Source of the DNA: Deltaproteobacteria bacterium | Lineage (GTDB): Bacteria > Desulfobacterota > Binatia > UBA9968 > JAJDTQ01 | DNA: 64,000 bases | Assembly (NCBI GenBank): GCA_026712905.1 | Contig: JAPOPM010000223.1 | Location: forward strand, 1-64,000 | Direction: 5' to 3' | Part shown: in pieces, positions 6,814-28,559 of the stretch | How positions within the stretch are numbered: position 1 is the stretch's first letter | Layout of the letters: the number at the start of each line of letters is the position of its first letter | Notes under the pieces: model-generated | The model's input: only the letters and a program-made list of their open reading frames with translations | What the model was told of the DNA's origin: nothing | The model's database searches: none | Translations under genes and position numbers: made by a program

Positions 6814-7290
6814 ATGCTGATTGAGGCTAACGACGCTGAAACCGGAAAACGCTTTTCGAAAGAGGCGAAAGAGCTTGACGGGAGCACCCTTGAGAAACTG
6901 TTGTCGATGCAATTGACGCGACAGGGCGTCACGGACATGATTGATAACCTAAACGTCAGCGCCGATGTAAAAGTGCTACTCGACCGCATCGCACAGGCTA
7001 CAATCACCATCGGCGGCGCAGTGGTCTGGATTGGGAGAATCATTCTCAAGGCGATCTTTTTCCTGCTCGGCGAGTTTCCACATGCGAGTTTCGGAGGCAT
7101 AGCAGGCGCCGTGCTGGGCTACCTGGTGTCCGCGATTCCGGTCATCGGTGCCGTGCTGGGCGGCCCGGTTACGACGCTCCTTGTAATTCTTGGCGCAACA
7201 TATGGCTTGATCAACGATGTCAAGTTCCGGGCGTTCAAGGCCAGGACCCTTGATGTCCTCAAACCCTTCGACGTTCTGAAAACGGCATGA
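6814..7290 (+). CDS. Uncharacterised small membrane protein, first gene of a two-gene cassette
   Basis: A 158-residue protein I do not recognise. A charged N-terminus (about 1-55, rich in Glu and Lys) is followed by three strongly hydrophobic segments near residues 62-86, 93-115 and 116-133 with many glycines, then a short basic tail. The start has a good AGGAGG site 8 bases upstream. The stop lies 4 bases before the next gene's ATG, so the two are co-translated. Base composition is lower in GC than the neighbours, suggesting acquisition. Possible roles include a membrane effector, an immunity protein or a stress protein; none can be shown. Confidence 0.75.
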   Translation: MLIEANDAETGKRFSKEAKELDGSTLEKLLSMQLTRQGVTDMIDNLNVSADVKVLLDRIAQATITIGGAVVWIGRIILKAIFFLLGEFPHASFGGIAGAVLGYLVSAIPVIGAVLGGPVTTLLVILGATYGLINDVKFRAFKARTLDVLKPFDVLKTA

Positions 7291-7294
7291 AGCC

Positions 7295-8077
7295 ATGATT
7301 ACGACAAATACACCAGAATCAGAATGGAATGCCTTGGTCCAGGAACTCGACATCGAGAGAGTGGTTGACCAGGCCATTCAGTTCAAGGCCCAGTTGGAGA
7401 TCGGAGAAGACGCCTACTGGTTCCTGAGAAAGGGAAAGGTCGCCGATCTTTTGTTGCACGGATCCCTTGCCGGTGTTGCTGGCGGTGCAACCGCAGCGAC
7501 GCCTGTTGTCGCAGGCACTCTCTTCCCTGCGGGCGGAATACTCGGCATGATCGGCTTGGGAACGGCGGTGACACCGATCGGGTGGGTCATCGGAGCCGGC
7601 GCTTTGTCCGCAGCTTTATGGATGACGGGCAAGACCGTCTACGACAAATTGAGTGATGAATCGACCGAACGCATACCGAAGTACCTGAACACCCCGTTGG
7701 ACGCGCTGGCATTCGGGGTTTTTGAGATGATGGCTCCACTTGCCTTGAGCATCGCCAACGCCGACGGAGAAATTGGCGCCGGGGAGAAAGACGAGATAGG
7801 CGGGTACTTCATCAGAAAATGGGGCTACAATCGAGAGTTCGTGCGCGCCGCGTTACGATTCTACACTTCTCGCATCGAGAACATCAGGGCCGAAGATATT
7901 GCTCGGTGTCTTGTGGAATTTCTGAAAGACCTTGAACAAAAACGCGACTGCAACGCTCGTAAAGTGTTGGAAAAGATTGGGCAGTTTCTGCAGAATCTGA
8001 ATTCGATGAACCATGGGAACGACGGCTGGAACGACGAGGCGTTCCGCAACGTCGAGAAGATACTGCTCAGGAGCTAA
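7295..8077 (+). CDS. Membrane protein with C-terminal TerB-like domain, second gene of the cassette
   Basis: A 260-residue protein. A soluble N-terminus (1-50) precedes two glycine- and alanine-rich hydrophobic segments at about 54-80 and 82-112. From about residue 135 a helical domain resembles the tellurite-resistance TerB/DjlA N-terminal fold, including the diagnostic metal-binding-like turn ANADGEIGAGEKDEI at 154-168. TerB domains are known from tellurium resistance and phage-defence gene neighbourhoods. The gene follows the small membrane protein by 4 bases. The TerB call is by eye and should be checked with profile searches. Confidence 0.7.
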   Translation: MITTNTPESEWNALVQELDIERVVDQAIQFKAQLEIGEDAYWFLRKGKVADLLLHGSLAGVAGGATAATPVVAGTLFPAGGILGMIGLGTAVTPIGWVIGAGALSAALWMTGKTVYDKLSDESTERIPKYLNTPLDALAFGVFEMMAPLALSIANADGEIGAGEKDEIGGYFIRKWGYNREFVRAALRFYTSRIENIRAEDIARCLVEFLKDLEQKRDCNARKVLEKIGQFLQNLNSMNHGNDGWNDEAFRNVEKILLRS

Positions 8078-18435: not shown

Positions 18436-19611
18436 TCAGATCCATCGTTCCGCGTCCCTGGCCGGACGGTCCGGATACTTCGCCGCCATGGCCGTCACGC
18501 CGGGGTGCTCCATGACTCCGAGCCGGTCTCCATCGTGCAGCACCTTCCCGTCCACTTTCAACGTGGAGCCCCGGAGCTCCGGTGCGGCGTGGAGGCAATA
18601 GGGGAAGTCATCGTTGTACCGGTGGTTGCCCAAATGCAGGTGGATGCTGGACGGATGAAAGGAATGCAGGAACTCGCGGTATTCCTCGTCAGGACACAGC
18701 ACCGGGCGAATCCGCGCCGCCGGGTGGATGCCGCCGTGCGGCGCGCGCATCTCGTAGCCGTGGTCCTCTCCGAGCACCTTCGCGAGCTCCACATAGAACG
18801 CTTCGAGTGTTCTCGCCTCCGCGCCGCCCTCGAACTTCACGATGTGGTTGTCCCGGATCGTCACGGTCACGGGACGGTCGAAGCTCGGCGGAACGCCGAT
18901 GTCACGGGCCCACACCGGCAGCATCCGGTCGAACACGAGCTCTCCCTGCATGCCCACCGGGTTGATGGCCGGGTAAATGCCCTCCGGGAAGGAACCCCTG
19001 CGGCCGCGCGGCGCCGTATAGGTTCCCCAGTTGGAGGTTGCCGGTCCCACCGTCCCTTCCAGGTGCGTTCCGTTGGGATTCCTAAGCTCCCAGCGATCGC
19101 CGGCATGGATCAACTCGGCGGTGCGCAGACGAAGCTCGGCGACGTATTCGTGAGGCGTTCGCGCCCAGGCCGTCGACAGCAGGCCGGCCGTCGTCGCCAT
19201 GTTGCGCACGAAGTGGACCTTGGTCTCCGCGAGGAGGTCCGGCCACTCCTTCAGTTCTTCCTCGGTGGAGAAATCGAGCACGTGGCTGATGAGCAGGTCC
19301 GCGCCGTGCATCACCGACTTCACCGGCCCTGGGACGCGCCACACGGTATCCCGTGTCGGAATGTCCGGCCATATGACGCTACGGCGGACCGGCAGGTCGA
19401 CCCACATCACCGTGGCGTGGGCGCCGCGGGACTCCACGCCCTGCTGGACCCAGGCGATGGCGGTCTCGTCCACGACGTTGACGCCGCCGTAGAGCCCGTC
19501 CACGGCCGCCAGGATGACCACGTGCTGGTCGCGTTGGACGGCCGCGCAACCGTCGAGAAGGTTGTCGATGGCCTGAGCTGCCGCGGTCGGTATGGGCCGG
19601 AAATCTCCCAA
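18436..19611 (-). CDS. M29 aminopeptidase/NicX-like metalloprotein
   Basis: A 391-residue protein whose C-terminal half resembles the M29 (thermophilic aminopeptidase) fold that also includes 2,5-dihydroxypyridine dioxygenase NicX: FPEGIYPAINPVGMQGEL, a strand pair VTVTIRDNHIVKFEGG, and late histidine/glutamate-rich segments GIHPAARIRPV and SIHLHLGNHRYNDD that could bind metal. The catalytic type cannot be decided by eye. It starts with TTG (GGGAGAGC upstream) and is the first gene of the long minus-strand operon ending at 10425. With the amidohydrolase it would initiate cleavage of the imported compound. Confidence 0.6.
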   Translation of the reverse strand: MGDFRPIPTAAAQAIDNLLDGCAAVQRDQHVVILAAVDGLYGGVNVVDETAIAWVQQGVESRGAHATVMWVDLPVRRSVIWPDIPTRDTVWRVPGPVKSVMHGADLLISHVLDFSTEEELKEWPDLLAETKVHFVRNMATTAGLLSTAWARTPHEYVAELRLRTAELIHAGDRWELRNPNGTHLEGTVGPATSNWGTYTAPRGRRGSFPEGIYPAINPVGMQGELVFDRMLPVWARDIGVPPSFDRPVTVTIRDNHIVKFEGGAEARTLEAFYVELAKVLGEDHGYEMRAPHGGIHPAARIRPVLCPDEEYREFLHSFHPSSIHLHLGNHRYNDDFPYCLHAAPELRGSTLKVDGKVLHDGDRLGVMEHPGVTAMAAKYPDRPARDAERWI

Positions 19612-19781: not shown

Positions 19782-20753
19782 ATGAACCTGAGCCGTAGGA
19801 CCATTGTCGTTGCAGGGGCCGCGTTGGCGGCCTGTGCGTTCACCCTTACCTCGACCGTTTCAGCCGCCGACCGCATCGTGTTCGGAGGCGGACCGGCCGG
19901 GGGCACCTTCCAGGTCGTGGCCAACTCCATTCAGACCTACGGCCCGGTGAAGAAGTCCAAGGACTACCGGGTCAGGGCCCAGTCCTCGGCCGGCTCGGTG
20001 GAGAACCTGCGCAAGGTCAACGCGGGCCGGATGCAGTTCGGCGTGGTCTACTCGGGCCACGTGTATCTTGGACACAACGGCCGAATGAAGAACGACACGC
20101 GCAAGTACAGGGACGTGCTCGCGGTCTCGTACCTGTACGGCGCACCGGCGCAACTGGTGGTGCGCAAGGGGTCGGGCATCCGCAGCGTCAAGGACCTGGT
20201 GGGCAAGCGGGTCGGCGTGGGCAACGCGGGCTCGGGCGCCTTTGCCAACTGCGAGCTGTTCTTCACCCACATGGGCGTCTGGGACAAGATCAAGCGCAAC
20301 GCCATGGGCTACAACGACGCGGCCGCCGCCTTCGGCAACAACCAGCTCGATGCCTTCTGGCTGTTTACCGCGTTTCCCAGCGGCGCCGTGATCATGGCCG
20401 CGCAGACCAACGACATCGAACTGGTCGATCTCGCCAAGGACGCCGAGGAGAGCGGCTTCTTCGAGAAGTACCCCTACTTCGCCAAGCTGGCGGTGCCCGC
20501 CGGCACCTACCGCGGCGTCGACAAGACGGCCCCCTCGTTCCAGGACTCGACGCTCTGGGTCGCCAACTCCAAGGTGTCCGCGGACATCGTCTACGATCTG
20601 CTCTCCAAGATCTACACCGACGAAGGTCTGGCCTACATGCGCAACCAGAAGAAGACGTTCAAGGAAATGAACGTCAAGGACGGCACCAAGGGCATCGTCA
20701 CCCCGCTGCATCCCGGAGCAGAGCGCTTCTGGAAGGAAAAAGGCGTGATGTAA
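19782..20753 (+). CDS. TAXI-family TRAP transporter solute-binding protein
   Basis: A 323-residue periplasmic protein with a signal peptide (MNLSRRTIVV..., cleavage near VSAADR). The TAXI signature appears as FGGGPAGGTFQVVANSIQTY right after it, followed by SSAGSVENLRKVNAGRMQFG and VGKRVGVGNAGSGAF. It captures a carboxylate-type or other small solute for the fused TRAP permease 97 bases downstream. AGGAAGGAG lies before the ATG and a promoter with operator lies about 55 bases upstream. Confidence 0.93.
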   Translation: MNLSRRTIVVAGAALAACAFTLTSTVSAADRIVFGGGPAGGTFQVVANSIQTYGPVKKSKDYRVRAQSSAGSVENLRKVNAGRMQFGVVYSGHVYLGHNGRMKNDTRKYRDVLAVSYLYGAPAQLVVRKGSGIRSVKDLVGKRVGVGNAGSGAFANCELFFTHMGVWDKIKRNAMGYNDAAAAFGNNQLDAFWLFTAFPSGAVIMAAQTNDIELVDLAKDAEESGFFEKYPYFAKLAVPAGTYRGVDKTAPSFQDSTLWVANSKVSADIVYDLLSKIYTDEGLAYMRNQKKTFKEMNVKDGTKGIVTPLHPGAERFWKEKGVM

Positions 20754-20850
20754 GCGGGCGCCGGCCCTGGTTTCGCTATTCGAACGGAAACAAACACGCG
20801 GGCGGCGAAGTGAATGGCTCCGCCGCCCGCGATGAACGGACACGAGGCGC

Positions 20851-22575
20851 ATGTTCAAGCAACTGAACACCGCGGAGCGATGGCTGTTCGACATCCTCTC
20901 GCTCGTCCTGGTGATCTTCTACTCCTACTCCGCGGTGCTCGTTCCCGCGGCCACCCAGTACCACCGCGGCATCTACGTCATCATCACCTATGTGCTCGTG
21001 TTCCTCCTCTACCGCTCCCGGAGCTTGGCGGGGAGGATCGTCGACTACCTCCTGATGGCCGTGTCGGTGGTGTGCATCGGCTACTGGATGTGGAACTTCG
21101 AGGCCATCAATTACCGGGTCGGCGCCGAAACCGTCCTGGATCAGTGGATCGCGGTGGCGGGCGTACTGATCGGCGTCGAGCTGGCGCGCCGGGTGGTGGG
21201 CAACGTCTTCGTCGTCCTCGGCGCGGTCATGCTGCTCTACGGGGTCTACGGCAATCTCATGCCGGACCTCGTCTCCCACGCGGGAGACACCTTTCCGGCC
21301 CTCTGCACCAGCATCTTCTACAAGAGCGACGGGGTCTTCGGGATCATGGCCAACGTTCTGGCCACCTACGTGATCCTGTTCGTCATCTTCGGCGCGTTCC
21401 TTGAAGCAAGCGGAGCGCAGCGGTTTTTCGTCGACTTCCCGCTCGCGGCGGTGGGCCACCGGATCGGCGGCCCGGCCAAGGTCGCGGTCATCGCCAGCGG
21501 CCTGTTCGGCTCCATCTCCGGCAGCGCCATCGCCAATACCGTATCCACCGGCAACTTCACCATCCCCATGATGAAGAAGGCCGGCTTCAAGCCGCACGTG
21601 GCCGGCGCGATCGAGCCCGCCGCTTCCATCGGCGGCATGTTCATGCCCCCCATCATGGGCGCCGGCGGCTTCATCATGTCGGAGCTCACCGGCGTGCCCT
21701 ACTCCACCATCATGCTCGTGGCCATCTTCCCGGCCCTGATGTACTTCTTCAGCGTCTACGTCATGGTCCACTACGAGGCCAAGCAGCACGACATCCGCGG
21801 CGACAGAGCGGAGACCAGCGCCGGAGAGATCTTTCGGCGCGGCTGGTACTACGTGCTGCCGCTCGCGGTCATCACCATTCTGATGCTGATGGGGTACTCG
21901 CCCGCCTACTCGGCGATACTGGGGATGCTGACCTGCATCGCCGTGAGCTGGGTGCGCAAGGACACGAGGATCGGGGCGTGGCGCTTTCTGGAGGCGTCGC
22001 GCGCGGGGGCCGAGAACAGCCTCAAGATCGGCGCCACCCTGGGCGTCATCGGCATCATTATCGGCGTACTGACGTACAGCGGCCTGGTGCTCACCTTCGC
22101 CGACATCGTGATCGAGTTGGCGGACGGCAGGCTCTGGCTGACGATCCTGCTCATCGCCCTGGCGTCCCTGATCCTCGGCATGGGAGTGCCGGTCACCGCT
22201 GCCTACCTGATCACCGCCGTGGTGGCCGTGCCGCCTCTGACGGAGCTGGGCGTCAACCCCATCGCCGCACACATGATCGTCTACTGGCTGTCCCAGGACT
22301 CCAACATCACGCCGCCGGTCTGCATCGCCGCCTTCACCGGCGCCACCATCGCCCAGGCCGACATGTGGAAGACCGCCTTCAGCGCGTTCAAGTTCGCCAA
22401 GTTCCTCTATCTGGCGCCCTTCCTCTTCGGCTATGTGCCGGCTTTCTCGCTCAACGGAAGCACTTCCGACATCGCCGTCGCGTTCGTCCTGATCATTCTT
22501 GGAACGTGGGGCTATTCCTGGGTGTTGAGCGGGATCTGGCTCAATTGGTTCGCCAGGGGGACGGCCAAGAACTGA
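20851..22575 (+). CDS. TRAP transporter fused permease (4TM + 12TM)
   Basis: A 574-residue inner-membrane protein combining a DctQ-like N-terminal part (first four helices, to about residue 125) with the large DctM-like subunit, as usual for TAXI systems. DctM motifs include GLFGSISGSAIANTVSTGNF, EPAASIGGMFMPPIMGAGGF and a C-terminal LSQDSNITPPVCIAAFTGA. Transport is sodium-coupled and needs the TAXI protein upstream. The nitrile hydratase genes follow within 60 bases on the same strand. Confidence 0.94.
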   Translation: MFKQLNTAERWLFDILSLVLVIFYSYSAVLVPAATQYHRGIYVIITYVLVFLLYRSRSLAGRIVDYLLMAVSVVCIGYWMWNFEAINYRVGAETVLDQWIAVAGVLIGVELARRVVGNVFVVLGAVMLLYGVYGNLMPDLVSHAGDTFPALCTSIFYKSDGVFGIMANVLATYVILFVIFGAFLEASGAQRFFVDFPLAAVGHRIGGPAKVAVIASGLFGSISGSAIANTVSTGNFTIPMMKKAGFKPHVAGAIEPAASIGGMFMPPIMGAGGFIMSELTGVPYSTIMLVAIFPALMYFFSVYVMVHYEAKQHDIRGDRAETSAGEIFRRGWYYVLPLAVITILMLMGYSPAYSAILGMLTCIAVSWVRKDTRIGAWRFLEASRAGAENSLKIGATLGVIGIIIGVLTYSGLVLTFADIVIELADGRLWLTILLIALASLILGMGVPVTAAYLITAVVAVPPLTELGVNPIAAHMIVYWLSQDSNITPPVCIAAFTGATIAQADMWKTAFSAFKFAKFLYLAPFLFGYVPAFSLNGSTSDIAVAFVLIILGTWGYSWVLSGIWLNWFARGTAKN

Positions 22576-22633: not shown

Positions 22634-22924
22634 ATGAGCTTTCGTTACAAGCAAGGTGATCGCGTCCGGGTGAAGGAAACGCTGACGCTGGGACATCACA
22701 TCCGCTCGCCCCAGTATCTCCGGGGCAAGGACGGCGTGGTGGCGGACATCCGAGGCAGCTTCAAGGACCCCGAGCTGCTCTCCTTCGGCAAGGACGGCCT
22801 GCCCATGGCCAACCTCTACTCCATCGAGTTCGAACTCGCCCACGTGTGGGACGACCGGCCCGCACCCAACGGTGTCAACAAGATCTACGCGGACATCTTC
22901 GAGCAGTGGCTGGAGCCGCGCTGA
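22634..22924 (+). CDS. Nitrile hydratase beta-subunit SH3-like domain protein (stand-alone C-terminal half)
   Basis: A 96-residue protein equal to only the C-terminal barrel of nitrile hydratase beta: FRYKQGDRVRVKETLTLGHH, then SPQYLRGKDGVVADIRGSF, and the closing LYSIEFELAHVW and KIYADIFEQWLEPR. The helical N-terminal half of a normal beta subunit (roughly 100 residues) is not encoded next to it. A split beta occurs in thiocyanate hydrolase. A TTG at 22598 would add 12 residues without family similarity, so ATG 22634 is used. It precedes the alpha subunit gene by 31 bases. Confidence 0.85.
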   Translation: MSFRYKQGDRVRVKETLTLGHHIRSPQYLRGKDGVVADIRGSFKDPELLSFGKDGLPMANLYSIEFELAHVWDDRPAPNGVNKIYADIFEQWLEPR

Positions 22925-22955
22925 ACGGTTCCGGAATAATTCACGGGAGGACCTC

Positions 22956-23768
22956 ATGGCCAAGGAAAGACAGGATGTGAACGTGGAGCCGGCCCCCAGC
23001 GGCGAGCCGAGCTATTTCGAGCGGCGCGCCCGCGCTACCGCGGACCTGTTGAAGGAGAAGGGCGTCCTGGACACCGACGAGGCGCGCCGGGTCAAGCACG
23101 GGCACGACCACAGCCACGACGACGTGTTCGAGCAGCTCCATTCCAACAACCCCATCGACACCACGGAGCACGAGCACACTCTCTTCGAGAAGCAGATGCT
23201 CGCCCTCGGCAACCTTCTGCGTGAGAAGGGCATCATCAGCACCGACGAGGTGCGACGCAAGATCGACGAGAACGAAGGCGTGTCTCCGCATCAGGGATCG
23301 AAAGTGGTGGCCCGGGCCTGGATGGACCCCGAGTACAAGAAGCGCCTGTTCGAGGACGGCATCGCCGCGGCCGAGGAATTGGGCGTCGACATGTCCACGG
23401 CCAACCAGCTTATCGCCGTGGAGAACACCGACGACGTGCATCATGTGGTCGTGTGCACGCTGTGCTCGTGCTACCCGCGGCAACTGCTGGGCCAGCCGCC
23501 CGACTGGTACAAGAGCACCAACTACCGTACCCGCGTGGTGGTGGACCCGCGCCGGGTCCTGAAAGAGATGGGGTTGGAGCTGCCGGAGTCCACGGAGGTG
23601 CGCGTCGTGGACAGCACCGCGGAGACCCGCTACCTGGTGGTGCCCCGGCGTCCGGAGGGGACCGAGGGCTGGAGCGAGGAGCAACTGGCCGGGCTGGCGA
23701 CGCGCAACAGCATGGTGGGCTGTTCCAACGCTCTCACCCCGATGCAGAAAGAGATGATGGCCGACTGA
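22956..23768 (+). CDS. Cobalt-type nitrile hydratase alpha subunit (or thiocyanate hydrolase gamma-like) with duplicated N-terminal segment
   Basis: A 270-residue metalloenzyme subunit. The claw motif CTLCSC at residues 167-172, with threonine in position two, is the cobalt type; flanking VENTDDVHHVVV, LLGQPPDWYKS and YRTRVVVDPRRVL are standard. The N-terminus is unusual: FERRARATADLLKEKGVLDTDEARR (21-45) and FEKQMLALGNLLREKGIISTDEVRR (78-102) are repeats of one helix pair, separated by a His/Asp-rich HGHDHSHDD. The first copy resembles the end of the helical part of a beta subunit. ATG 22956 follows GGGAGG. It should convert a nitrile to an amide. Confidence 0.9.
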   Translation: MAKERQDVNVEPAPSGEPSYFERRARATADLLKEKGVLDTDEARRVKHGHDHSHDDVFEQLHSNNPIDTTEHEHTLFEKQMLALGNLLREKGIISTDEVRRKIDENEGVSPHQGSKVVARAWMDPEYKKRLFEDGIAAAEELGVDMSTANQLIAVENTDDVHHVVVCTLCSCYPRQLLGQPPDWYKSTNYRTRVVVDPRRVLKEMGLELPESTEVRVVDSTAETRYLVVPRRPEGTEGWSEEQLAGLATRNSMVGCSNALTPMQKEMMAD

Positions 23769-23862: not shown

Positions 23863-24516
23863 ATGAGCATATTACGGAGTCTCACGGAGCGTTGCGATCC
23901 GTCCCTGGCGGGGCTCATCGTGGTGGACGTCCAGAACGATTTTTGCAGCCCCGAGGGCGCCTGCGCCAAGCGCGGCGTGGACATCGCGTCCGGTCTCGAG
24001 ATGATGCCCAACCTCTACAAGCTCATCGAGGAGGCGCGGGAGGTGAACCTGCCCATCATCTACATCCAGACCCTCCACAGCGAGTGGACCGACACCGACC
24101 CCTGGATCTACCGCAAGCCCGAGGGCGCGGACAAGGAGACCTGCCGCGAGGGCTCCTGGGGCGCCGATTTCTTCGACGGCATCGAGCCCCGGGCGGACGA
24201 GCGCGTGGTGATCAAGCACCGCTACAGCGCCTTCATCAACACCGACCTCGACACCATCCTCAAGGCCAAGGGCATCGAGAGCGTGCTGCTGACCGGCGTG
24301 GCCACCAACGTGTGCGTGGAAAGCACCATGCGCGACGCCTTCATGCTGGACTACTACGTCACCATGGTGCACGACTGCATGGCCACATCCAACCCGGTGC
24401 TCCACGAGGGCACGCTCGAGAACACCCGCCGCCAGTTCGGCCTGGTGGCGTCCCACGAGGAGGTCATCGATACGTGGGAGGGGTTGGAGCGAAAGAAGGC
24501 CGCTCCAGGGTTCTAA
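23863..24516 (+). CDS. Isochorismatase-family cysteine hydrolase (probable amidase)
   Basis: A 217-residue protein with the complete cysteine-hydrolase triad: Asp in VVDVQNDF (about 25), Lys in VIKHRYSAF (about 123) and Cys in GVATNVCVEST (about 157). Nicotinamidase, biuret hydrolase and N-carbamoyl-amide hydrolases share this fold. Directly after a nitrile hydratase it most simply hydrolyses the amide product to an acid and ammonia. A GGAAGGAG site precedes the start. It is the last gene of the plus-strand unit that begins with the TAXI transporter. Confidence 0.9.
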   Translation: MSILRSLTERCDPSLAGLIVVDVQNDFCSPEGACAKRGVDIASGLEMMPNLYKLIEEAREVNLPIIYIQTLHSEWTDTDPWIYRKPEGADKETCREGSWGADFFDGIEPRADERVVIKHRYSAFINTDLDTILKAKGIESVLLTGVATNVCVESTMRDAFMLDYYVTMVHDCMATSNPVLHEGTLENTRRQFGLVASHEEVIDTWEGLERKKAAPGF

Positions 24517-26413: not shown

Positions 26414-26461
26414 GTGTGGCTTCAAGCATCAGTCAAGTCCATCAACACTGGAGGACCTACC

Positions 26462-27490
26462 ATGGTACGGAGACTCGCTGCCGTATTGACTACAGGTATC
26501 GCGTTGGCGTTTACGTCGGGACCGGCGTGGAGCGTAGCGGATTTCTACAAGGGCAAGACCATCCGGTTCATCGTGGGGCACGCCCCCGGCGGCGGCTACG
26601 ATACCTACACCCGGACCACCGCCCGCCACATCACCAAGCACTTTCCGGGAAAGCCCAACCCGGTGGTCCAGAACCTCACCGGTGCCGGGGGCCTCATCGC
26701 CGGCAACTACATCTACAACAAGAGCAAGCCCGACGGCCTGACCGTGGGCGTGTGGAACAACCAGTTCGTGGTGCATGAGGCGCTCGGCAGCAGACGCGTG
26801 CACTTCAAGGCGCGGAAGTTCGGTTGGATCGGCGCCCCCGTCACCGGCTGGCCGAGCTGCGCGGTGATGGCATTCACCGGCCTCAAGAGCTGGGACGACT
26901 TGGTGAAGTACGGCAAGCCCCTCAAGGTGGGATCGGCCGGCGGCACCGGCACCACTCTGCCGACGATCCTGAACATCGCCACCGGCAAGGAGCTGTTCGA
27001 AATCATTCCCGGGTACCGAGGCACCGCACCGGTGCGGCTGGCCATGCAGGCGAGAGAGCTGGGCGGGGTTTGCATGTCGTTCGAGTCCATGCGGGTGACC
27101 GCCCGGTCGATGCTCGACGCCAAGGGCGGCGACAAGCTGATTCCGATTCTGGTCCATGGAAATCCGCCGGATCCCGAAGTCCAGAACATCCCGCGCGTGC
27201 AGGATCTCGTCAAGGGCAAGAACAACGTGGCGATGCTGAACGCCTGGGCGTTGCAGTACAACTTCCAGCGGCCGCTAACGCTCCCTCCGGGTACCCCCAA
27301 GGAGCGCGTCGCGGCCTGGCGCAAGGCCTATGCCGCGACTCTCAAGGATCCGGCTTTCCTGGCGGACGCGAAGAAGTCGCGCCTGAACGTCGAGTACGTG
27401 TCCGGAGAACAGATCGACAAATACGTGGAGATCATGCTGAACATGTCGGCAGAGACCAAGGAACGGCTCAAGTGGATGCTGCCCAAGTAA
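26462..27490 (+). CDS. Tripartite tricarboxylate transporter substrate-binding protein (TctC), copy 1
   Basis: A 342-residue periplasmic protein with signal peptide (cleavage near AWSVAD) and TctC/Bug motifs: RFIVGHAPGGGYDTYTRTTA, VVQNLTGAGGLIAGNYIYN and the DGLTVGVWNN loop. It binds a carboxylate and delivers it to TctA/TctB permeases. The only such permease in the window is the fused gene at 31974-34049, on the opposite strand. It is roughly four-fifths identical by eye to the next gene, indicating a tandem duplication. Confidence 0.92.
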   Translation: MVRRLAAVLTTGIALAFTSGPAWSVADFYKGKTIRFIVGHAPGGGYDTYTRTTARHITKHFPGKPNPVVQNLTGAGGLIAGNYIYNKSKPDGLTVGVWNNQFVVHEALGSRRVHFKARKFGWIGAPVTGWPSCAVMAFTGLKSWDDLVKYGKPLKVGSAGGTGTTLPTILNIATGKELFEIIPGYRGTAPVRLAMQARELGGVCMSFESMRVTARSMLDAKGGDKLIPILVHGNPPDPEVQNIPRVQDLVKGKNNVAMLNAWALQYNFQRPLTLPPGTPKERVAAWRKAYAATLKDPAFLADAKKSRLNVEYVSGEQIDKYVEIMLNMSAETKERLKWMLPK

Positions 27491-27521
27491 GGGATTTGAC
27501 GAAACCGAAGGGAGTCTGGAA

Positions 27522-28559
27522 ATGAAGCGAGCCGTTGTCGGAATAGTCGGCCTGAGCTTTGCCTTGGCGTTCGTCGCGGGCTTCTCGGGCACCGCCTGGA
27601 GCGTCGAGGACTTCTTCAAGGGCAAGACCCTCCGCTTCATCGTCGGAGCCTCGCCGGGTGGCGGATACGACACCTACACACGCACCGCCGCGCGCCACAT
27701 CAGCAAGCATTTTCCCGGAAACCCGACGCCGGTGGTGCAGAACCTGACCGGCGCCGGCGGCCTCATCGTCGCCAACTACCTCTACAACAAGGTCAAGCCC
27801 GACGGGCTGACAGTGGGCGTCTGGAACAACGTGTTCCTGCTGCACGAGGCGCTGGGCTCCCGGCGTGTCAACTTCAAGGCACGGAAGTTCGGCTGGGTGG
27901 GCGCGCCCGTGACCGGCTGGCCGAGCTGCGCGGTGATGGGATTCACCGGCCTCAAGAGCTGGGACGATCTGGTCAAGTCGGGGAAGCCCCTCAAGGTGGG
28001 GTCGTCCGGCGGCACCGGCACCACCCTTCCCACGATCCTCAACATCGCCTCCGGCAAGAAGCTCTTCGACATCGTTCCCGGTTACAAGGGTACGGCGATC
28101 GTGAGGCTGGCCTTGCAGGCGAGGGAGCTGGGCGGGGTCTGCATGGCGTTCGAGTCCATGCGGGTGACGGCGCGTTCCATGCTCGACGCCAAGGGCGACG
28201 ACAAGCTGGTCCCCATCCTGGTCCATGGGAATCCGCCGGACAAGGAAGTGAAGGACCTGCCGCGGGTGACGGACCTAGTCCAGGGCAAGGACAACGTGGC
28301 CATGCTCAATGCCTGGGCGGTGCAATACAACTTCCAGCGGCCGGTAACGCTGCCGCCGGGCACCCCCAAGGCCCGGGTGGCGGCCTGGCGCAAGGCCTAT
28401 GCCGCGACCCTCGAGGATCCGGCCTTCCTGGCCGACGCCAAGAAGTCCAAGCTGAACGTGGTGTACGTGTCCGGCGAAGATGCCGAGAAGCACACGGAGA
28501 CGATCCTGTCCATGTCTCCGGAGACCAAGGAGCGCCTCAAGTGGATGTTGCCCAAGTGA
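27522..28559 (+). CDS. Tripartite tricarboxylate transporter substrate-binding protein (TctC), copy 2
   Basis: A 345-residue paralogue of the preceding gene, beginning with a separate signal peptide (MKRAVVGIVGLSFALAFVAG, end near AWSVED). Differences concentrate in the signal peptide, in the loop after GLIVANYLYNKVK, and near the C-terminus (EDAEKHTETILSMS), so the ligand-contact loops may have diverged slightly. It lies 31 bases after copy 1 and is followed by a strong hairpin terminator. Confidence 0.92.
   Translation: MKRAVVGIVGLSFALAFVAGFSGTAWSVEDFFKGKTLRFIVGASPGGGYDTYTRTAARHISKHFPGNPTPVVQNLTGAGGLIVANYLYNKVKPDGLTVGVWNNVFLLHEALGSRRVNFKARKFGWVGAPVTGWPSCAVMGFTGLKSWDDLVKSGKPLKVGSSGGTGTTLPTILNIASGKKLFDIVPGYKGTAIVRLALQARELGGVCMAFESMRVTARSMLDAKGDDKLVPILVHGNPPDKEVKDLPRVTDLVQGKDNVAMLNAWAVQYNFQRPVTLPPGTPKARVAAWRKAYAATLEDPAFLADAKKSKLNVVYVSGEDAEKHTETILSMSPETKERLKWMLPK

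Follow-up and report, generated by a model that had tools for sequence, protein, structure and literature searches.

A nitrile hydratase (NHase) locus of two genes is found in the stretch of DNA analysed here, which comprises 64,000 nucleotides and is referred to below as the window. The alpha gene begins 31 bases downstream of a short beta gene (Table 1). The 96-residue beta protein has a single domain match, PF02211 (NHase_beta_C; 63.7 bits against a cut-off of 27.7 in a profile search), which bears out the statement of the initial annotation that the gene encodes only the C-terminal barrel (beta-C). Arg24 in its GHHIR motif (nucleotides 22703-22705) aligns with beta-Arg157 of the Pseudonocardia NHase and is kept in every window-type beta-C sequence tested, and by profile and alignment the barrel is that of a cobalt-type (Co-type) NHase, a beta-C with the beta-Arg157 equivalent. 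The helical N-terminal domain of beta (beta-N) is missing. A beta-N profile run against the whole 64-kb window matched nothing except the alpha N-terminus, no beta-N remnant was found upstream of beta-C or in the rest of the window, and the beta-N with beta-Arg52 that a Co-type NHase has at the same locus is absent from the window.

Table 1. Features of the window and related NHase loci in other contigs and genomes
Feature	Position	Strand	Basis or remark
TAXI-type TRAP receptor and fused TRAP permease	19782..22575	+	PF16868, PF06808
beta-C gene, SH3-like C-terminal domain of NHase beta alone, 96 aa	22634..22924	+	PF02211
Likely ribosome-binding site GGGAGG of alpha gene	22945..22950	+	Direct sequence reading
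NHase alpha gene, extended N-terminus, 270 aa	22956..23768	+	PF02979, TIGR01323
Hairpin copy 1 (extra), residues 19-45, SYFERRARATADLLKEKGVLDTDEARR	23010..23090	+	AlphaFold2 helices; alpha-type by profile
Disordered linker with HGHDHSHDD and EHEH	23097..23177	+	pLDDT below 50
Hairpin copy 2, residues 75-108, alpha's own canonical N-terminal hairpin	23178..23279	+	Collinear with PF02979
Metal-binding CTLCSC motif, cobalt type, residues 167-172	23454..23471	+	Invariant in 44-sequence alignment
Isochorismatase-family cysteine hydrolase, RutB/biuret-hydrolase-like	23863..24516	+	PF00857, 173.8 bits
Complete split NHase operon (beta-N, beta-C, alpha), own genome, contig C47	L009:6417-7703	-	Without activator
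Long-alpha NHase loci with stand-alone beta-C	L118, L119, L121-L132 (e.g. L128:2727-4087)		Extension MSGKHGHKPFEGHMHD...

The alpha protein matches PF02979 over residues 78-256 (264.9 bits). It passes the NCBIfam equivalog for NHase alpha (TIGR01323; 256.6 bits, cut-off 249.85) and fails that for the gamma subunit of thiocyanate hydrolase (TIGR03887; 209.2 bits, cut-off 291.45). All residues invariant in the 44-sequence alignment are retained, and Foldseek placed the alpha model on a 1IRE-type alpha with a TM score of 0.86 of target and an rmsd of 1.1; profiles and Foldseek together give the CTLCSC motif on an NHase alpha fold, as in Co-type enzymes. The N-terminus was initially described as two similar helix pairs around HGHDHSH, and a shuffling test and AlphaFold2 have confirmed this. 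Residues 20-45 compared with residues 76-101 gave a raw duplication score of 72, whereas 5000 shuffled comparisons averaged 23.7 (SD 4.4) and reached at most 52. The AlphaFold2 model, based on 44 sequences, has helices at residues 20-34 and 40-47 in copy 1 and at 76-90 and 96-107 in copy 2, with residues 48-71, including HGHDHSH, disordered (pLDDT below 50); the confidence of copy 1 is moderate (pLDDT about 73). Copy 1 includes the DExR arginine, R44, which sits at the hairpin position equivalent to the DExR arginine of beta-N. The His-rich linker would occupy the place that is taken in other alphas by their ordinary His-rich N-terminus. Such N-termini are usual among the standard NHases of the set compared, and because they are so common the suggestion that the histidine cluster aids cobalt loading was not supported and has been set aside.

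Conservation of the locus was followed by a profile scan of contigs, which recovered full-length orthologs with the whole N-terminus from five further genomes (89-93% identical) and a sixth ortholog truncated by its contig end. These are metagenome-assembled genomes whose titles name Candidatus Binatia or Deltaproteobacteria. Each of the five full-length ortholog loci has beta-C, the extended alpha and the isochorismatase-family hydrolase side by side, the truncated locus retains alpha and hydrolase, and the hydrolase lies directly 3' of alpha in 6/6. This hydrolase is likely an amide hydrolase acting after the NHase. The TRAP genes upstream, which may possibly take up the NHase substrate, are intact in three ortholog loci (L033, L034, and L036), partly lost in L035 and absent from the flank retrieved for L037. 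Among six genomes, dN/dS was lowest for copy 2 (0.05) and the alpha core (0.06), slightly higher for beta-C (0.09) and highest for copy 1 (0.19), so that copy 1 evolves faster than copy 2, and neither beta-C nor alpha has a broken frame. All six full-length sequences retain the R44 arginine within a DE[A/T]R motif. Given the orthologs and the low dN/dS, both genes therefore look functional, and copy 1 appears to be constrained, less strictly than copy 2. Two further features of the surroundings were recorded. A 391-residue protein with no match in Pfam or NCBIfam is encoded at window positions 18436-19611 (-); in L033-L036 it is conserved beside the NHase locus at 88-95% identity. At window positions 26459-28559 (+), two TctC-type receptor genes in tandem, probably the product of a duplication, are adjoined by an oppositely oriented fumarate/tartrate hydratase-like gene pair.

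Loci without beta-N were also found outside this group. In a genome of a different class of the same phylum (G035), beta-C stands with a single-hairpin alpha that is 58-60% identical to the window alpha; no beta-N lies beside the locus and none over the cut-off was detected in the genome. Fourteen genomes of the window's own order carry a "long-alpha" locus, in which the alpha next to beta-C is lengthened at its N-terminus by a helical stretch of about 145 residues. These loci share with the window the solitary beta-C, a helical extension of the alpha N-terminus and the absence of beta-N at the locus in all 14 genomes, but differ in that, by hhalign, the extension is detectably related in sequence neither to beta-N nor to the ordinary alpha hairpin; as a beta-N homologue the extension was rejected, with an hhalign probability below 3%. 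AlphaFold2 predicted long helices at residues 17-45, 51-60, and 78-100 of the extension, and a fold search assigned both models, long-alpha and window alpha, to NHase alpha folds. An asparaginase-like gene lies beside long-alpha in three of the four loci inspected. One long-alpha genome (G520) has no beta-N match anywhere. The absence of beta-N from G520 and G035 is not proof, since most of the genomes are metagenome-assembled and these two are each 90% complete. In a tree of the alpha core, the full-beta, long-alpha, and window-type groups each form one clade, and loss of beta-N has for that reason probably happened more than once. The backbone of the tree is poorly resolved, and the window clade sits on a long branch (0.5), with its placement unresolved and no firm joining with G035.

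The preferred reading, held at a probability of about 45%, is that the window encodes a two-protein Co-type NHase without beta-N, in which the duplicated hairpin meets the role of beta-N in cis. The N-terminal hairpin of alpha would have been duplicated in tandem, with the extra copy tethered by the flexible His-rich linker, and copy 1 would most likely pack against alpha's own hairpin at the usual site of the beta-N helices. At the CTLCSC cobalt site, where the beta-C arginine is in place, nitrile would be converted to amide, and the neighbouring hydrolase would cut the amide to acid and ammonia. In characterized enzymes, the oxidised cysteines are hydrogen-bonded by two arginines, beta-Arg52 of beta-N and beta-Arg157 of beta-C, and activity is abolished when either one is mutated (PMC7587978). 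The duplicated hairpin perhaps compensates for the missing beta-Arg52. Some compensation is plausible because alpha and beta-C of Streptomyces canus without beta-N, which contained 0.58 mol cobalt per mol, kept only about 4% of full activity (PMC7329996). Several observations count against compensation in cis: beta-Arg52 has no demonstrated replacement, copy 1 is modelled at a pLDDT of only about 73 and evolves faster than copy 2, and G035 manages with one hairpin. The stronger version, in which copy 1 docks at the beta-N site and R44 replaces beta-Arg52 at the cobalt so that the beta-N domain is dispensed with, is rather unlikely, and that R44 reaches the metal is speculation. Were it true, the window-type and long-alpha families together would mean that cis replacement of the beta-N domain took place in Binatia on two or more occasions.

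The most serious alternative is that beta-N is supplied in trans, giving an ordinary three-subunit holoenzyme in which the extra hairpin is dispensable or regulatory. A full-length beta or beta-N gene elsewhere in the same genome, acting with this alpha, had been named in the initial annotation as the finding that would refute a rearranged enzyme. A beta-N gene does exist elsewhere, on contig C47, but it belongs to a complete operon of its own, in which beta-N (7371-7703, minus strand) overlaps its own beta-C (7069-7374) and an alpha is also present. The split-beta set of three subunits is thus complete at C47, whereas the window locus has beta-C and no beta-N. The C47 beta-N is the only one over the cut-off in a PF21006 search of the genome, and beyond it no PF21006 gene that could be an activator was detected there; the earlier remark that no activator gene is adjacent to the window locus holds, and extends to activator-like PF21006 genes across the genome. 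A three-gene operon accompanies the window-type locus in all seven genomes of the genus that carry the latter, which makes supply in trans possible and compensation in cis unnecessary; 12 of the 14 long-alpha genomes likewise hold a three-gene locus. In the finished chromosome of G397 the two loci are about 444 kb apart. The other two members of the genus both lack a window-type alpha; in one (G502) a fragment of beta-N lies at the end of a contig, and in the other (G503), a genome 76% complete, none was found. Against supply in trans stands the overlap of the C47 beta-N with its own beta-C inside a complete operon, and with only 43-50% identity between the two systems it is not evident that they would share a subunit. 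In addition, the loci of G520 and G035 lack beta-N and neither genome has one over the cut-off, and in G511 beta-N was found only inside a full-length beta. Overall, supply in trans is possible, but less probable than compensation in cis.

It is also conceivable, although improbable, that alpha and beta-C form a minimal enzyme with no substitute for beta-N, perhaps with a changed substrate or reaction, and that the extra hairpin is neutral or plays a part in assembly or metal loading. The single-hairpin alpha of G035, with beta-C and no beta-N over the cut-off, is an arrangement of this kind, and the S. canus pair of alpha and beta-C does show residual activity (PMC7329996). That activity is, however, only about 4%, and copy 1 is under purifying selection.

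The origin of copy 1 bears on a further alternative, raised in the initial annotation, that part of the beta helical domain moved onto alpha and that copy 1 descends from the second beta-N hairpin (beta-B). Alpha residues 10-51 match positions 58-100 of PF21006 (NHase_beta_N) with 25.4 bits against a cut-off of 21.5, and the copy-1 motif SYFERR...LLKEKGVL resembles SYYERW...LLVEKGVL of beta-N. The resemblance to beta-N noted at the outset is thus real. It arises because alpha and beta-N hairpins look alike (hhalign relates the second hairpin of beta-N to alpha's own with a probability of 96%), and the PF21006 match therefore cannot settle the ancestry of copy 1. Cross-validated profiles were accordingly built from the collected NHase loci for the alpha hairpin, beta-N hairpins A and B, and the accessory-protein hairpin. 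Copy 1 scored 28.2 bits with alpha, 20.1 with accessory, 13.8 with beta-B, and 6.0 with beta-A; it favours alpha over beta-B by 14.4 bits and its ortholog copies by 5.3 to 11.8, the segment being short and the ortholog margins modest. Every known beta-B hairpin scores at least 12.4 bits better with beta-B than with alpha, and every known alpha hairpin at least 15.9 bits better with alpha than with beta-B. Pairwise searches also returned alpha hairpins as the nearest sequences to copy 1, and copy 1 has Arg where beta-N typically has the Trp of ERW. The extra hairpin thus does not group with beta-N hairpins as a beta-N-derived fusion would, and beta-N ancestry was rejected on the calibrated profiles; what remains of that alternative is improbable. 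Because the calibrated profiles and the pairwise searches both place copy 1 with alpha, it is more likely that alpha's own hairpin was duplicated in tandem than that a piece of beta-N was moved. Finally, the absence of beta-N from the locus might suggest a decaying remnant of a three-gene operon after beta-N loss, but the low dN/dS of beta-C and the alpha core, the intact frames in six genomes and the lack of any beta-N remnant nearby have already largely refuted this, and almost no weight is left to it.

In thiocyanate hydrolase (SCNase), too, beta is split, and the gamma subunit is alpha-like and rich in His; the enzyme possesses a beta-N subunit. The fold of the window alpha matches the gamma chain of the Thiobacillus thioparus enzyme (2DD4) by Foldseek, but its score lies under the gamma equivalog cut-off (209 vs. 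291 bits). With classical Co-type NHases (Pseudonocardia thermophila, 1IRE; Pseudomonas putida, 3QXE) the window shares the alpha fold, CTLCSC, and a beta-C barrel with its Arg, whereas those enzymes have a full-length beta with beta-N and beta-Arg52 and a single alpha hairpin. The three-subunit NHase of S. canus (AnhD/AnhE/AnhA) has a small separate beta-C, a Co-type alpha and no activator gene, as at the window, and takes up cobalt without one; it differs in a separate beta-N gene, AnhD, that is needed for full activity, while the window locus lacks beta-N and its alpha has a second hairpin (PMC7329996). By this example, lack of an activator is normal for three-subunit NHases. The eukaryotic beta-alpha fusions of Monosiga and relatives (PMC3323583) share a His-rich stretch before the alpha core with helices ahead of it, but there a whole beta precedes alpha, and the window alpha has merely a hairpin, of alpha type. 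His-rich alpha N-termini, split beta, and absence of an activator are thus ordinary. The combination of a missing beta-N with a doubled alpha hairpin is new, as is the parallel long-alpha family, and no description of either the G035-type or the long-alpha arrangement was found in the literature searched.

Other NHase-related loci were observed in the course of the survey. In a member of the Chloroflexota (Dehalococcoidia), separate beta-N, beta-C, and alpha genes are spaced 2.4-2.5 kb apart (L040:500-6531), and the N-terminal part of this beta-N (PIDRSEHE...) closely resembles the stretch of the window alpha before and including copy 2. The window's own genome also encodes, on contig C225, an 89-residue NHLP-type RiPP precursor ending in GRCCC (L010:6357-6626, minus strand; TIGR03793, 70.9 bits) that adjoins an NHLM-type ABC transporter, and in a congener (G505) roughly 17 NHase-alpha-like peptides of this type are encoded in an array (C1:2510638-2523649).

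The window organism, a Candidatus Binatia bacterium, is probably a sponge symbiont, as its relatives and the reported sponge association of order Bin18 of the Binatota (PMC8262859) suggest. The producer of the sponge nitrile hydratase that acts on aeroplysinin-1 is not known (PMC3766881), and comparison of the de-novo peptides of that enzyme with the collected loci gave only short 6-of-8 chance matches. Natural NHases without beta-N would reveal which parts are truly needed for catalysis and cobalt loading. They are informative because beta-N carries an arginine regarded as indispensable and because NHase activator proteins resemble beta-N, and they would also offer compact scaffolds for amide production.
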